Source: Eublepharis macularius | Lineage: Eukaryota > Chordata > Lepidosauria > Squamata > Eublepharidae | Direction: 5' to 3' | Length of the DNA stretch: 64,000 nt | Assembly (NCBI RefSeq): GCF_028583425.1 | Contig: NC_072796.1 | Coordinates: 143,105,464-143,169,463 of the forward strand | In this document: positions 16,132 to 55,440 of the stretch, piece after piece | Layout of the letters: each line of letters begins with the position of its first letter | Numbering within the stretch: the stretch's first letter is position 1 | Program-made: the position numbers and the translations under genes | Notes under the pieces: model-generated | Told to the model about the DNA's origin: nothing | Database searches by the model: none | The model's input: the letters and a program-made list of their open reading frames with translations, nothing else

Positions 16132-16907
16132 TCAGGCCTGGAGGGGGCTGAGCGGCGGCGGCGCGGCGCCCTTGAAGCAGGCCGACTCGTGGTGCTTGTT
16201 CAGGTAGGACTTGAGGGCGAAGGTCTTGCTGCAGCGCTTGCACTTGAAGTGCTTGAAGGCCGAGTGCGTCTGCATGTGGGCGCGCAGGTTGGAGCGGTCG
16301 GCGAAGGCCTTGCCGCAGTGCGCGCAGCCGAAGGGCTTCTCGCCCGTGTGCGAGCGCATGTGGCCCTGCAGCAGCCAGGGCCGGCTGAAGGCCTTGCCGC
16401 ACACGTCGCACTTGTGCTTGAGGTCGTGCGTGAGCAGGTGCATGGCCATGGCCGGCATGGAGACGTACACCTTCCCGCACGTCGGGCACTTCTTGGCCAT
16501 CTTGCTGTCGAGGCTGCGGTGCGTCTGCTTGTGGCGGCTCAGGTTGGACGAGGTGGCGTAGGTCTTGCCGCACTCGCTGCACGTGTGCCGCTGCTGCTGC
16601 GGGCCCAGGCGGGCCCCCGCGCCGCCGCCGCCGCCGCCGCCGCCGCCCGCCGCCGCCTTGCGGCGCGAACGGCCGTCGGTGATGAAGAAGGCGTCGACGG
16701 CGTAGCCCTCGCTCACCGCCGCGTCGCCGTTGATGTAGCCGCCGGCCAACTCCGAGTGCGGGCTGTCGGGCTGGTCCGAGTCCGGCGCGCCGTAGTCGCC
16801 GTGCGCCCCGGGGTAGATGGCGCCCGACGGCGAGGGCACCTTGAGGCCGCTGTCGCTCTCGCCCTCATACACCGACGACGGCGTGATGTACTCGCTGATG
16901 TATCCTC
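16132..16907 (-). CDS. SCRT1: SCRT1 coding exon 2 (linker, polyglycine and five C2H2 fingers)
   Basis: The exon starts after a pyrimidine-rich tract at a tandem acceptor, CAG|GAG| (16,910-16,908 and 16,907-16,905), and runs to a TGA stop at 16,134-16,132. All five fingers lie in this exon without interruption, which is the usual SCRT arrangement. Linkers such as HTGEKPF between fingers 3 and 4 are canonical. The region is extremely GC-rich, so the same DNA shows long spurious open frames on both strands. Confidence 0.96.
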
Positions 16908-18599
16908 CTGGGGGCGGGAAAGGGGGGAGGGGGCCAGAGGAGGGGGAGGGCCGGGACAAAGGGCGGGGAGGAATGGGGTGCAAGGGGGAAAGATGGGGGG
17001 GGAGCGGGTGGCCGGCGGGAAGGCGATCCAGAGGGATATGGGGGGGATAAGTGGAGCGAGTGGGGGGCAATGGGGAAAGATGGGGGTCGAGGAACGGCCC
17101 GATGGGCGGGAGGGAGGGAAGGGAAGGGACGGGGGGGGGGCAGAAAGGAACGCAGGGAGCGGGGAATGGGGGCGGCGAGGCAGGCCGGAGCAGGCAAGGG
17201 AGGCCGGGGAAGGAGAGAGAGCGCCGGAGCGCCTGTTTAGAGAGCCTTGGTAGGCCGGCCGGGAGGCCGCGAAGGAGCCTCTGATTAGTCAATAATTGAT
17301 GGGCTTCGGGAGCTCAGCTCGAGAGCTCTCCAGTTAATAGATGCAACAAGCTGGAGCCGCGAGGAGCCCCCCCTCGCCCCGCTCCCCCTCCCCGCCAGGC
17401 GGCTCCTCTGTCATGCTAATCTCCGCGGCGCTTGATGAACCTGCCTCCCCCCCGCCCCCCACCGGCAGCTCCATCATTCCGAGCGATTTCCCGGCCTTTC
17501 ACCTGCGGCTCGTTTGGCCAGCTCAGCTCAGTGGCTGGCAAGGCTGAGGAGGGGGCAGGGGGAGGGCGGCTGCTGGCCCCCGGGCACAGAGGGAGGCACC
17601 CCCGTTCTCTACCCCCACCCCAAGATCCCTCCCTTCAAGGTCAGCTCTCTGCAGGAGACCCAAGAGAAAGGTGGGGGGGGGCGTAGCCTGCCCGGGCGCT
17701 TCTCTCCCTCTCCCCTCACTCCGGCTTTCCAACCACTTCAGCAGAATTCCGGCGATTATGCAACACGCCGCAGACGTATTGCCCGGAACAAAGGGGGGGG
17801 GGTTCACCAGAAGCCCGGGCCGAAGGGTGGGAAACACCCCTCGGATTTCAGGGGGAGCTCTCGGAACCGTGCACTGGAGGGGCCCGCGTGGATGGTCCCT
17901 CCCGGGGGAACAGAGGGGGTGGGGATCTCCGTTTGCCCTTGAACTTGACGCTCTCAAGACAAAAGGGCCCCGGGCTCCCGAGGACTGCCTGAGATGCCCC
18001 CACCGGGAGAGGGGTCTCCAGCCCCTCGCGGCCGCCTCTCTGCAGACCTGTGGCTCCCGCCTCTGCCCCACCGCGGCCGGCGCCATCCCCACCGCTGCGC
18101 TCAGCCCCGGTTCTCAGGGGCCGGGTGAGCAACGGAAATGTGCCGCGTCAACACAGCAGCGAGCGAGCGAGCGAGCGAGCGAGGCGCGGGCGCCACTCAA
18201 TATGGCTCGCTCCTCCTGCTGCCGCGGCCGCTGCAGGCATTCCAGGAAAGGAGAGCCGCATACCGGGACTCGCTGGCGCTCGGCCCCCCTCGGTGCAGCG
18301 CCGGCACTGGCAACGGGGGCCGGAGACGGGCGAGGGCTGCTCGGAAGGGCCCGGTTCGAGCCCGACCCCCTCCCGGGCCCTGCCTCCCTTTCTCTGCAGC
18401 CTCTCCTTCCCTCCCTCTGGCTTTCCCGCTCCATTGCTGGGGTAGGGCCCCTCTCCCCCCTCCGCCCGCCCGCAGTGCCTTTACCCTTGTCATGGATCCG
18501 GGAGTTGAAGTCCGTCCGCGACCTGCTGTAGGAGTTTTCTAGATCCGCCGAAGAGAAATCGTCAAGTTTGACCTTTTTAACCAGGAAAGATCTTGGCAT
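16132..18599 (-). CDS. SCRT1: SCRT1, Scratch family zinc-finger transcriptional repressor, spliced from two coding exons
   Basis: Joining 18,599-18,485 to 16,907 (or 16,904)-16,132 on the minus strand gives a 296- or 295-residue protein. Residues 1-9 (MPRSFLVKK) are the SNAG repressor motif, which in the Snail/Scratch family recruits LSD1-CoREST. A conserved segment at about 95-121 ([27 protein letters not shown]) separates SCRT1 from SCRT2. Nine glycines lie at 125-133. Five C2H2 zinc fingers follow at about 147-167, 178-198, 204-224, 232-252 and 260-281, the last ending in Cys instead of the final His, and the tail is LSPLQA. The family binds E-box-like CAGGTG sites and represses transcription in neuronal nuclei. 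Human SCRT1 is longer (about 348 residues); the difference is in the low-complexity linker before finger 1, not in the fingers. The start is fixed by the SNAG motif. Identity is secure; the exact mRNA ends are not visible. Confidence 0.97.
16621..16650 (-). repeat. GCC/GGC triplet run encoding SCRT1 polyglycine
   Basis: A run of gcc triplets on the plus strand encodes the nine-glycine tract and flanking small residues (residues 125-136 of SCRT1). It is coding and in frame, and is likely to vary in length between individuals. Confidence 0.85.
16908..18484 (-). other. SCRT1 intron 1
   Basis: The boundaries are GTAAAG at the 5' end and a C/T-rich tract with CAG or CAGGAG at the 3' end. The content is purine-rich on the plus strand near the acceptor (G-rich tracts from 16,915 to about 17,230) and CpG-rich towards exon 1, including (GAGC)n at about 18,162-18,182. 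No RNA gene or second coding segment was recognised. Confidence 0.85.
18485..18599 (-). CDS. SCRT1: SCRT1 coding exon 1 (SNAG exon)
   Basis: 115 coding bases read [20 protein letters not shown] and continue to HDKG at residue 39. The exon ends with a phase-1 splice donor, AAGG|GTAAAG, at 18,485/18,484. The human protein has the same N-terminal segment and the same HDKG junction. The intron to exon 2 is about 1.58 kb, is CpG-rich and shows no other gene. Confidence 0.95.
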
Positions 18600-23717: not shown

Positions 23718-23949
23718 ATTGTCGAAGGCTTTCACGGCCGGAGAACGATGGTTGTGGGTTTTCCGGGCTGTATTGCCGTGGTCTTGGCATTGTAGTTCCT
23801 GACGTTTCGCCAGCAGCTGTGGCTGGCATCTTCAGAGGTGAAGATGATGATGCCACCTCTGAAGATGCCAGCCACAGCTGCTGGCAAAACGTCAGGAACG
23901 ACAATGCCAAGACCACAGCAATACAGCCTGGAAAACCCACAACAACCAT
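23718..23949 (-). mobile_element. PLE-derived inverted-arm element, family B, in CR1
   Basis: Two inverted arms flank a loop of about 17 nt. The left arm is complete to the terminal tattgtcgaaggctttcacg; the right arm stops about 35 nt short, at acaaccat. A perfect 14-bp duplication (tattcaggtcttgt) lies at 23,704-23,717 and 23,950-23,963. Each arm holds a family B hammerhead. Confidence 0.88.
23798..23838 (-). ncRNA. Hammerhead ribozyme motif, family B, core intact
   Basis: Forty-one nt: stem I CCU/AGG, core CUGAAGA, one extra U, hairpin II GCCAGC/GCUGGC, GAAA, loopless stem III AC/GU, predicted cleavage after C. The partner in the other arm (23,856-23,896, plus) has GAAA changed to AAAA. 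Confidence 0.72.
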
Positions 23950-24820
23950 TATTCAGGTCTTGTTGAATTTTAATTCTATCTTCTTGGGTGTTTGCTACTC
24001 CTCCCAATTTGGTATCATCAGCAAATTTAATGAGCAGCCCTTCCACTCCTTCATCCAGATCATTGATAAAAATATTGAAAAGTACTGGGCCCAAAACTGA
24101 GCCCTGCGGCACCCCACTGGACACCTCCCTCCAATCTGATGAAACACCATTGACCACCACTCTTTGGGTGCGGTCCTCTAACCAGTTCCCTATCCACCAA
24201 ACTGTCCTATAGTCCAGTCCACAGTCTTCCAGTTTGCCCATCAGAATGTCATGGGGGACCTTATCAAAAGCTTTACTGAAATCCAGATAAATCACGTCAA
24301 CAGAGTTCCCCGGATGCAGTAAGCTGGTCACTCGATCAAAGAAGGAAACCAGGTTGGTCTGGCAAGATCTGTTAGGAACAAAACCATGTTGACTTTCCCG
24401 GATCACTGAGCGGTCCTTCAGATGCTTACAGATTGATCCCTTTAAAATCTGTTCTAATATCTTCCCAGCAACAGAAGTCAGACTGACCGGCCTGTAGTTT
24501 CCTGGGTCATCCTTCCTCCCTTTCTTAAAGATTGGGATAACATTCGCTCTTCTCCAATCTTGTGGCACATCCCCAGTCCTCCAGGAGGCCTTGAAGATGA
24601 TGGACAGAGGCTCTGCAAGTTCTCTAGAAAGTTCTTTCAGCACTCTTGGGTGCACCTCATCCAGCCCAGGGGATTTGTATTTATCCAGTGCAGCCAGGTG
24701 TCTCTCTCCACAACCTCTCTGTCAATGTCAACTAGCCCCCCCAGATGTCCTGTTGTGTCTACTATCATCTCTAGATAGGCTCAAGTTCTTCAGGGAGAGG
24801 CAAAAACATCATTAAGCCTG

Positions 24821-27445: not shown

Positions 27446-27449
27446 CGAT

Positions 27450-27489
27450 GCATCTGATGAAGAGAGCTGTGGTTCTCGAAAGCTTATGC
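27450..27489 (+). ncRNA. Hammerhead ribozyme motif, family A, array unit 1, intact
   Basis: GCAU/AUGC stem I, CUGAUGA core, extra A, hairpin II GAGAGC-UGUG-GUUCUC, GAAA, AG/CU stem III, U at the predicted cleavage position. Confidence 0.78.
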
Positions 27490-27501
27490 TACAATAAAGT
27501 T

Positions 27502-27541
27502 GCATCTGATGAAGAGAGCTGTGGTTCTCGAAAGCTTATAC
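27502..27541 (+). ncRNA. Hammerhead ribozyme motif, family A, array unit 2, core intact
   Basis: Same core as unit 1; stem I has one mismatch (GCAU with AUAC). Confidence 0.7.
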
Positions 27542-28006
27542 TACAATAAAGTTGCATCTGACTAAGAGAGCTGTGGTTCTCGAAAGCTTACACTACAATA
27601 AAGTTGCATCAGACGAAGAGAGCTGTGGTTCTCAAAAGCTTACGCTCCAATAAAGTTGATTCTTCTTAAAGGTGCTGCAGAGAAAAGTGGAGGTGATTGG
27701 TCTGATCCAGCCCTCCTAGAGGGGAAGATTTAAGGAGCCCCCAAAATGGGATTTCCAAATGGCACCAACAGGCCCCCATTGTTGCTATGCTGAACGATCA
27801 ACTGGCTGGCCTCTGTGTGGATTCTGAAAGCCATTAAACTAGGCCTCCCTTAGCAAAGGTCTCTGGCTATGTGCCGGGCTCATGAAGGATGCAGGAAAAT
27901 ATGACTTTGCAAACTAAGCAAACCAAAACTCCATCTCCACCACAAAGGACCCAGCGAGGAGGGATGGTGCTTGTTGCTCAACATGTCTGAAGGAGGGCCT
28001 GCACTC

Positions 28007-29210: not shown

Positions 29211-29445
29211 CATAGATTCAGAGGAGTTAGCCGTGTTAGTCTGTAGTTGCACCATCAGCTTTTGAGAACCACAGCTCTCTTTGTCAGATGCATCATCAGC
29301 TTTCGAAAGCTGACGATGCATCTGTCGAAGACACCTGTGGTTCTCAAAAGCTGATGATGCATCTAACAAAGAGAGCTGTGGTTCTCGAAAGCTTATGCTA
29401 CAATAAAGTTGGTTAGCCTTAAAGGTGCCCCTGGACTCCTTACTA
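29211..29445 (+). mobile_element. PLE-derived family A element, rearranged
   Basis: The left arm end is complete (gattcagaggagttagcc) and three degenerate hammerheads follow: one inverted (29,258-29,293) and two direct (29,318-29,357 and 29,359-29,398). The right arm is truncated at ggactccttac. Flanks tagtaccacgag and tagtatcatgag match at 10 of 12. Direct cores are CUGUCGA and CUAACAA, both inactive. Confidence 0.75.
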
Positions 29446-33544: not shown

Positions 33545-33950
33545 GGTCCCTTGAGTCCCCATGGCTAGTAGCCACTGAGGGACCCCTCCTCCATGGCTCC
33601 ATTTAATCCCCTTTTAAAACTGTGTGTGTCTGTGGCCATCGTAGTCAAGAGTCCAGTAGCACCTCTAAGACTAACCAACTTTACTGTAGCATAAGCTTTC
33701 GAGAACCACAGCTCTCTTCATCATGTGCAAGATGCTTCATCAGATGCATCTGACAAAGAGAGCTGTGGTTCTCGAAAGCTTATGCTACAGTAAAGTTGGT
33801 TAGTCTTAAAGGTGCTACTGGACTCTTTACTATTTTGCTACTACAGACTAACACGGCTAACTCCTCTGGATCTGTGGCCATCGTGACATCCTCTAGCAGT
33901 GAATTCCACATATTAATCCCTCGTGTAAAGAAGTATTTCATAGAATCCCG
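33545..33950. repeat. Old interspersed repeat split by a PLE insertion
   Basis: catggctagtagccactg on the left continues, after the PLE insertion, as ctctagcagtgaattccac and gtgtaaagaagtatttc on the right. It is the same family as 4,920-5,130. Confidence 0.6.
33643..33870 (+). mobile_element. PLE-derived inverted-arm element, family A
   Basis: The left arm is truncated (begins agtcaagagtccag) and the right arm is complete to ctcctctgga. The perfect 14-bp duplication tctgtggccatcgt is at 33,629-33,642 and 33,871-33,884. Both hammerheads carry core changes: 33,689-33,728 (minus) and 33,746-33,785 (plus, CUGACAA). Both arms share the private variant acagtaaag. Confidence 0.9.
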
Positions 33951-53925: not shown

Positions 53926-54268
53926 TCCCCGCGGGCAGCCCTTTCTTCCAAGTGAGGGAACAAAGCTGTCCCCCCCCCCTCCTGCACAAATGCACACCCC
54001 ACCCCTCAGTTCTTGGTGACTACTACACAGTACGTCTTCATGCTTGCAGGGACCAAGACATCCTTGTTGCCCCCTCCCCTGCTCCCCTTCTGCCCCCAGG
54101 TGCCCTTCTGCTGACAGTCTGGTCCACTCCTGTACTGCATAGATCCAGAGGAGTCGGCCGTGTGTTAGTCTGCAGTTGCAAAATAGTAAAGAGACCAGTA
54201 GCTCCTTTAAGACTTACCAACTTTATTGTAGCATAAACTTTTGAGAACCACAGCTCTCTTCATCAGAT

Positions 54269-54308
54269 GCATCTGATGAAGAGAGCTGCGGTTCTCGAAA
54301 GCTTATGC
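54269..54308 (+). ncRNA. Hammerhead ribozyme motif, family A, array unit 1, intact
   Basis: GCAU/AUGC, CUGAUGA, extra A, GAGAGC-UGCG-GUUCUC, GAAA, AG/CU, U. Confidence 0.76.
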
Positions 54309-54681
54309 TAAAGAAAGTTGCATCCGACAAAGAGAGCTGTGGTTCTCGAAAGCTTATGCTACAAGAAAGTTGCATCCGACAAAGAGCTGTGGTTCTCGAA
54401 AGCTTATGCTACAAGAAAGTTGCATCCGACAAAGAGAGCTGCGGTTCTCGAAAGCTTATGCTACAAGAAAGTTGCATCCGACAAAGAGAGCTGTGGTTCT
54501 CGAAAGCTTATGCTACAAGAAAGTTGCATCTGACAAAGAGAGCTGTGGTTCTCGAAAGCTTATGCTACAAGAAAGTTGCATCCGACAAAGAGAGATGTGG
54601 TTCTCGAAAGCTTATGCTACAAGAAAGTTGCATCCGACAAAGAGAGCTGTGGTTCTCGAAAGCTTATGCTACAGTAAAGTT

Positions 54682-54721
54682 GCTTCTGACGAAGAGAGCT
54701 GTGGTTTTCGAAAGCTTATGC
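54682..54721 (+). ncRNA. Hammerhead ribozyme motif, family A, array unit 9, core intact
   Basis: CUGACGA and GAAA are intact; stem I has one mismatch (GCUU with AUGC) and hairpin II has two G-U pairs. Confidence 0.68.
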
Positions 54722-54784
54722 TACAATAAAGTGGGTTAGTCTTAAAGGTGCTACTGGACTCTTTATTATCCTGTACTGCAGAAT

Positions 54785-55440
54785 CTGAAGACTGAAAACC
54801 ACTTGGACCCTCCTCTCTCCCCGATCAAAGGCTGGGCCCCACTCTCAAGACTGGCCCAACACTGAACCCCGCCCCAGGTTATGATAAGGAAAAATCCCCG
54901 CTGAGTCCTAACACGCTGCCAGGTCTGCAATCCACAGCCCTGCCAGGTTGCTTTCTCACGACTGTCATGCTGCACTTTTCCTGTGTTATTTTGCATGCAG
55001 GTTCACAGGAACAGACGTGGTTCCCAAGACAGCCGTATCTCAAGAGAGACTCGCAGAGACCTTGGAGTCGTAACTTCAGGATTTCTTGCTGCAAGGGGAT
55101 TTGGGAGATGAAATCAAAGTAACTTGAACTCCATAGACTGACACACGCCACCTCCAGAGCAGTTTCCCGGTCTGGCCAGATGCACTCATGGATCCGGGCA
55201 GTGGGGCGGACCTTCCTCCCGTAGGCTGTGCATCCCCTCTTTCTCTCCACTCACAGCCTGGTTGCAAGACCCTCAGAGGAGCCCTGCCGGACCAGAGCAG
55301 CGGCCCATCGAGTCCGGCATCCCATCTCCCAGAGCAGGCAACTGGTTGCCCTGGAGAATAAGCAAACATGGAGGAAAGGGGCGGAGGCCTTTCTCTGCCC
55401 AGCACTGGGATGCAGAAGACTGCTGCATCTGAATATGGAG
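54785..55440. other. Unannotated stretch
   Basis: No recognised gene. 55,282-55,335 resembles a SINE 3' phrase (ccagagcagcggcccatcg). Confidence 0.4.

Follow-up and report, generated by a model that had tools for sequence, protein, structure and literature searches.

The nine-unit tandem array in the window (the whole 64-kb stretch of DNA that was analysed) is probably the product of a Penelope-like insertion made of two arms, followed by minisatellite expansion of one mutated hammerhead unit near a chromosome end, with no selected function needed. On its sequence, the array is a TE-derived minisatellite, with tandem units drawn from part of a dispersed element. Minisatellites grown from a piece of a retroelement are a known kind of repeat; what is unusual in this one is that the piece is a hammerhead unit. 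The window array seems to be an ordinary repeat expansion, of which this genome has many near its chromosome ends.

Tandem repeats in the 64-kb window were called with TRF, which reported 54,268-54,732 with a period of 52, 9.0 copies and 94% matches. The unit-by-unit split of 54,269-54,733 gave nine mini-hammerhead units in tandem, 50-52 bp each (51, 52, 50, 52, 52, 52, 52, 52 and 52 from unit 1 to unit 9). The two methods agree, and the nine-unit array with intact outer cores claimed in a preliminary description of this DNA was confirmed, as were its counts of core changes in the inner units (Table 1). Letters of the core CUGANGA...GAAA were present in units 1 and 9 and absent from units 2-8; the core read CCGACAA in units 2-5, 7 and 8 and CTGACAA in unit 6. 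Unit 9 kept the core letters; its stem I has a mismatch (GCTT vs GCAT), and its stem II, with GTTTTC, is weaker. The spacer was AAGAAAG (vs AATAAAG) in units 1-7 and AGTAAAG in unit 8. The spacer change described earlier as common to the inner units therefore exists, but sits in units 1-7 and not in units 2-8. Because the spacer change occupies units 1-7 and the core changes units 2-8, the amplified piece runs from one spacer into the next core.

Table 1. Features of the insertion and its array (window coordinates)
Feature	Position	Strand	Evidence or state
Left target-site duplication TCCTGTACTGCA	54128..54139	.	Perfect 12-mer match to 54,769-54,780
Inverted left arm: one hammerhead unit, body and tail, reading outwards	54140..54270	-	nhmmer arm model
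Palindromic head-to-head centre at ATGCAT	54252..54287	.	Junction list; hairpin matches centred there
Unit 1	54269..54319	+	Core CTGATGA intact, mutated-type spacer
Units 2-8	54320..54681	+	G8 to A 7/7, U4 to C 6/7
Unit 9	54682..54733	+	Core CTGACGA intact, stem I mismatch, weaker stem II
Right-arm body, tailless end	54734..54768	+	Sequence; tail motif absent
Right target-site duplication	54769..54780	.	12-mer match to left copy

Across the window, a 21-base unit pattern (at most 3 mismatches) was found at 27 places, against a shuffle mean of 0.02. A second 52-bp array lies at 27,449-27,658 and comprises 4 units with cores CTGATGA, CTGATGA, CTGACTA and CAGACGA. Another array, at 29,306-29,397, has a 41-nt period; units 41 nt apart occur at 29247-29410 and at L019:5569-5792, with a GAAAGCTGACGATGC-like join that is unlike the 52-nt join. 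Two reading frames, 54,245-54,739 and 54,280-54,729, span the nine-unit array and were rejected as genes, being the repeat itself read in frame. Elsewhere in the window, a minus-strand reading frame with C2H2 zinc fingers (16132-17313; Pfam PF00096) lies in a GC-rich stretch and presumably resembles a Scratch (SCRT) gene. The reverse transcriptase fragment at 23732-24721 on the minus strand (RVT_1) is probably from a LINE and is separate from the array finding.

The insertion was delimited by its target-site duplication, TCCTGTACTGCA, a perfect 12 bp. When the left copy was paired with the right flanks of other insertions as a control (22 pairings), the longest match was 7. The preliminary description had placed perfect 12-bp duplications around the array; the perfect pair stood, but what it brackets is 54,140-54,768 (629 bp; C7:143,159,603-143,160,231), which takes in an inverted arm and reaches beyond the array. 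This inverted copy of unit and body lies head-to-head with unit 1. The arm model of nhmmer aligned over positions 1-130 to 54,270-54,141 (129.3 bits), and the unit in this left arm has the core CTGATGA, but its G12 is changed to A, and it has AAGTTT in place of AAGCTT. The junction between 54,270 on the minus strand and 54,269 on the plus strand, CTCTTCATCAGATGCATCTGATGAAGAG, is palindromic with a gap of -1. The tail motif is present on the left arm and absent from the right.

Other insertions were examined in the same way. Exactly one tailed arm was found in 22 of the 23 insertions with both arms recognised, in the window plus 16 other loci (counted from 26 rows, of which those at L040 and L043 were cut down manually to the outermost pair); the exception was the insertion at 33,621-33,874. 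Of 22 usable insertions, 10 had target duplications, 9-14 bp long, and every one of these exceeded the matches in all 22 controls. The pairing of one tailed with one tailless arm is a strikingly regular asymmetry and bears on how both target strands are primed. Penelope-like insertions are described, in the part of the source available, with inverted pseudo-LTRs, head-to-head junction palindromes, a tail on one of them and short duplications (PMC3846280). For the anole element, two start sites of reverse transcription explain the tail, and both target strands are cut and extended (PMC11167929). From these pseudo-LTR, palindrome, tail and duplication features, the insertion can be read as a head-to-head joint between two arms that were each primed. 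Judged by the layout of its parts (head-to-head arms, palindromic centre, one tail, target duplication), its anatomy is that of a Penelope-like insertion. The autonomous element of such a family would encode a reverse transcriptase fused with a GIY-YIG endonuclease.

Changes within the unit were surveyed by position in 220 units scoring at least 40 bits, which are not independent because arrays hold clonal copies. C7 was changed most often (in 36%, always to T), followed by G12 (31%; 64/68 changes to A) and G8 (29%; 53/64 changes to A), and the remaining positions were mostly changed at 7% or less. C7-G8 and C11-G12 are the sole CpGs in the unit consensus. G8 and G12 are what we take to be the catalytic guanosines of the hammerhead unit. 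The substitution G8C abolishes cleavage (PMC11167929). Since G8 and G12 lie within the two CpGs of the unit and are among its three most changed sites, the G8 to A change in the inner units fits a simple cause, decay of a methylated CpG. Exposure of the catalytic residues to CpG decay would simply account for the large number of dead hammerheads of this type in the genome.

A 35-place pattern of the 52-nt tandem junction gave 1,872 matches in the 2.24-Gb genome, and its control gave 0. The 20 junction places retrieved yielded 19 arrays of 3 to 28 units, the longest at L035 (28 units). Units were also found in 9/20 spaced 10-kb stretches (E up to 1). One array, L027 (C1:238,653,950-238,655,150), mixes 38- and 52-nt spacing, and in L041 the unit spacing repeats as a higher-order pattern. 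The genome-wide junction matches were 1,230 forward vs 642 reverse, and 89/100 of the matches listed were on C1-C3; from this skew and this placement, long one-direction arrays probably lie on contigs beyond those in the listed matches. The exact junction of the dead unit occurred 4 times genome-wide, all inside the window array. Together with the Penelope-like anatomy, this result upholds the earlier proposal that an already mutated unit was amplified inside such an insertion.

Distances to chromosome ends were compared on C1 and on C2 from 0 to 197 Mb for tandem loci and single copies of the same element. Tandem loci were drawn from 100 listed junctions of the 1,872, all on C1-C4, and single copies were 100 listed of 685, on C1 and the first 197 Mb of C2. 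Single copies were probed with an exact 60-mer that includes part of the tail, so the probe favours young, tailed copies. Seven tandem loci beyond 197 Mb on C2, one of them within 5 Mb of the end, were excluded because the single-copy list ends at 197 Mb. Among the matches listed, 15/20 tandem loci vs 10/100 single copies lay within 5 Mb of an end (Fisher p 6.7e-9), and 19/20 vs 27/100 within 20 Mb (Fisher p 1.1e-8). On C3, for tandem loci alone, 9/16 were within 5 Mb and 16/16 within 30 Mb of an end. The window array lies some 1.53 Mb inside the end of C7. Tandem expansion is, over the stretches that were compared, more concentrated towards chromosome ends than single copies are. Expansion confined to end-proximal copies has been described in frogs, where, in the available part of the source, subtelomeric copies of SINE/tRNA-V are the only ones with an expanded 52-bp part, and the expansion was attributed to recombination (PMC10794172).

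The sequence of events that we consider probable would run as follows. A Penelope-like element would insert as two head-to-head arms, each comprising a hammerhead unit and downstream body, one with the family tail and one without, and 12-bp target duplications would flank the pair. Later, on one arm, the 52-bp unit would expand by slippage or unequal exchange about 1.5 Mb from the chromosome end. The spreading copy would already carry G8 to A (from CpG decay) and U4 to C, and both end units would keep the family core because they were left out of the amplification. That recombination was the mechanism, that the events came in this order and that the array lacks a function are what we infer. 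Divergence was counted on both sides of the proposed order: the arms differ from the family consensus at 13/213 aligned bases, and units 3-8 differ from unit 2 at 5/310. These values fit expansion after insertion, and gene conversion between units would look alike.

Tandem units could instead have been laid down in a single insertion event, through repeated backward jumps of the telomerase-like Penelope reverse transcriptase along its template, and this we regard as unlikely. Joins of several distinct kinds (38, 41 and 52 nt spacing) speak for it, head-to-head palindromic junctions show that template or cDNA joining takes place at insertion, and multi-unit stretches are found on both arms at L019 and L040. 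The 38-nt and 41-nt joins suggest that some tandem copies may arise by another route, perhaps at insertion. Against an origin of the window array at insertion, tandem loci are far more concentrated near ends than single copies among the matches listed, and its variants are private to one locus, as later local expansion predicts.

The 52-bp tandem might also have been inherited from a source element with at least 2 hammerhead units, copied as multi-unit RNA with little later change. Axolotl PLEs, in which the available part of the source reports minimal hammerhead copies in tandem (PMC7229834), are a precedent, and many loci in this genome have the 52-nt join in common. The spacer variant was found at 16 places in 5 loci genome-wide, and at the C2:4.84 Mb locus it occurs together with the U4 to C core; through that combination, the dead unit of the window array and the C2:4.84 Mb copy may descend from a shared multi-unit source. 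Inheritance of the whole array is nevertheless decidedly improbable, since variants of the inner units are private to the window locus, which makes at least the present nine-unit block local. A starting dimer could still have come from the source element.

The preliminary description had further proposed that a multi-unit RNA could be released from a long transcript, with the active outer ribozymes cutting at either end of the array. For unit 1, the cut was predicted between 54,304 and 54,305, a position that we assume from the hammerhead rule. Units 1 and 9 keep CUGANGA and GAAA, and unit 1 folded alone was predicted to form stems I and II with pair probabilities of at least 0.92. One intact unit in a dimeric hammerhead could cut at the site of its neighbour, which would also count in favour of release. 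Once 10 nt of native upstream sequence were added to unit 1, its predicted stem I dropped to 0.0. Folded together, unit 1 and the left arm were predicted to form a long hairpin of -80.7 kcal/mol; in this prediction the inverted arm locks unit 1. Unit 9 failed alone (predicted stem I at most 0.01, stem II 0.03) and is not hammerhead-like in these models, and units 3 and 7 alone also folded poorly. Across the whole insertion, predicted stems I and II did not exceed 0.16 in any unit and were near zero in the two edge units, 1 and 9, so that fold prediction, by programs that ignore tertiary contacts, dimeric hammerheads and protein help, does not separate the edges from the inner units. For the anole element, insertion in vitro did not require an active ribozyme, and none of the RNA reads started or ended at the cut site (PMC11167929). 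The folds lend no support to a two-end cut, and we consider it highly improbable.

Rfam searches were run for hammerhead families. None reached its gathering score in the window, and at E up to 10 the region 54,100-54,800 gave 21 matches, none to a hammerhead family. Sub-threshold miRNA matches were rejected, as they track the inverted-repeat hairpin. The genome search with RF00008 gave 0 matches, and its controls likewise gave 0.

Intactness of cores was compared in 20 other arrays, chosen by a junction pattern that admits intact and dead cores although not every mutant. Among these, 25/40 outer and 71/133 inner units were intact (permutation p 0.40; the first unit of L038, which was counted, is a truncated projection). 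First units were intact in 10/20 arrays and last units in 15/20, and when GAAAGC was also required the counts were 15/40 outer and 47/133 inner. 'Dead inside, intact outside' was on these counts rejected as a rule. Among the 21 arrays of at least three units, the window array was the only one, of those with at least four units, with both edges intact and all inner units dead. Outer units were not significantly more often intact in the 20 other arrays, so the claimed satellite with active ribozymes kept at its edges did not hold up, and the broken-inner, intact-outer pattern looks accidental rather than functional. Selection to keep inner units dead, on the grounds that arrays of active ribozymes would cut up the very RNA from which they are copied, would suit the window array and L044 (11/12 units with changed cores, the last alone intact) and is scarcely credible against the 71/133 intact inner cores, L026 (10/10 cores intact) and L040 (six of seven, all seven without GAAAGC).

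This single array matters little, and the useful result is that of the wider family. The Penelope-like hammerhead unit seeds many arrays, and their positions, set against those of single copies, point to expansion near ends. Arrays and single copies of the same element offer a clean natural test of minisatellite birth. Any transcription of arrays whose cores are intact would make these arrays a natural source of very short ribozyme RNAs. It is conceivable, and in our view quite unlikely, that Penelope-like insertions have seeded a large ribozyme minisatellite family, expanded near chromosome ends, in which methyl-CpG decay acts as a clock that switches off catalysis first and arrays rich in intact cores (L026) might release 52-nt RNAs or circles. 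Among the papers listed from an open-licence library, none reported the array or CpG decay in hammerheads, a silence that says little about whether such reports exist.

Lunse, Weinberg and Breaker described small hammerhead variants in Penelope-like elements, which reportedly cleave as dimers. These variants likewise have a very short stem III (the AAGCTT palindrome), the CUGANGA core and tandem occurrence. Unlike them, the arrays here reach up to 28 units (L035) and have many dead cores.

Newt satellite 2, the hammerhead satellites of Schistosoma and animal retrozymes are likewise tandem repeats with type I hammerheads, and, in the parts of the sources available, carry one hammerhead per 150-450 bp (PMC6155905, PMC7229834). 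Unlike in those satellites and retrozymes, the unit here is little more than the hammerhead itself. The Penelope of Adineta vaga and Poseidon PAc of the green anole likewise have head-to-head inverted arms with a junction palindrome, an optional tail of ~31-40 bp on one arm and short duplications (PMC3846280, PMC11167929). In Poseidon PAc, the hammerhead lies near the start of the transcribed body, as here (PMC11167929). Unlike both, the copies here are short and without a recognised reading frame, and the hammerhead unit is tandemly expanded. A close precedent is the frog SINE/tRNA-V minisatellite, likewise a retroelement piece of ~52 bp that, in the part of the account available, is tandem in copies near chromosome ends (PMC10794172); unlike there, the source here is a Penelope-like ribozyme unit, and the end bias here comes from part of the places.
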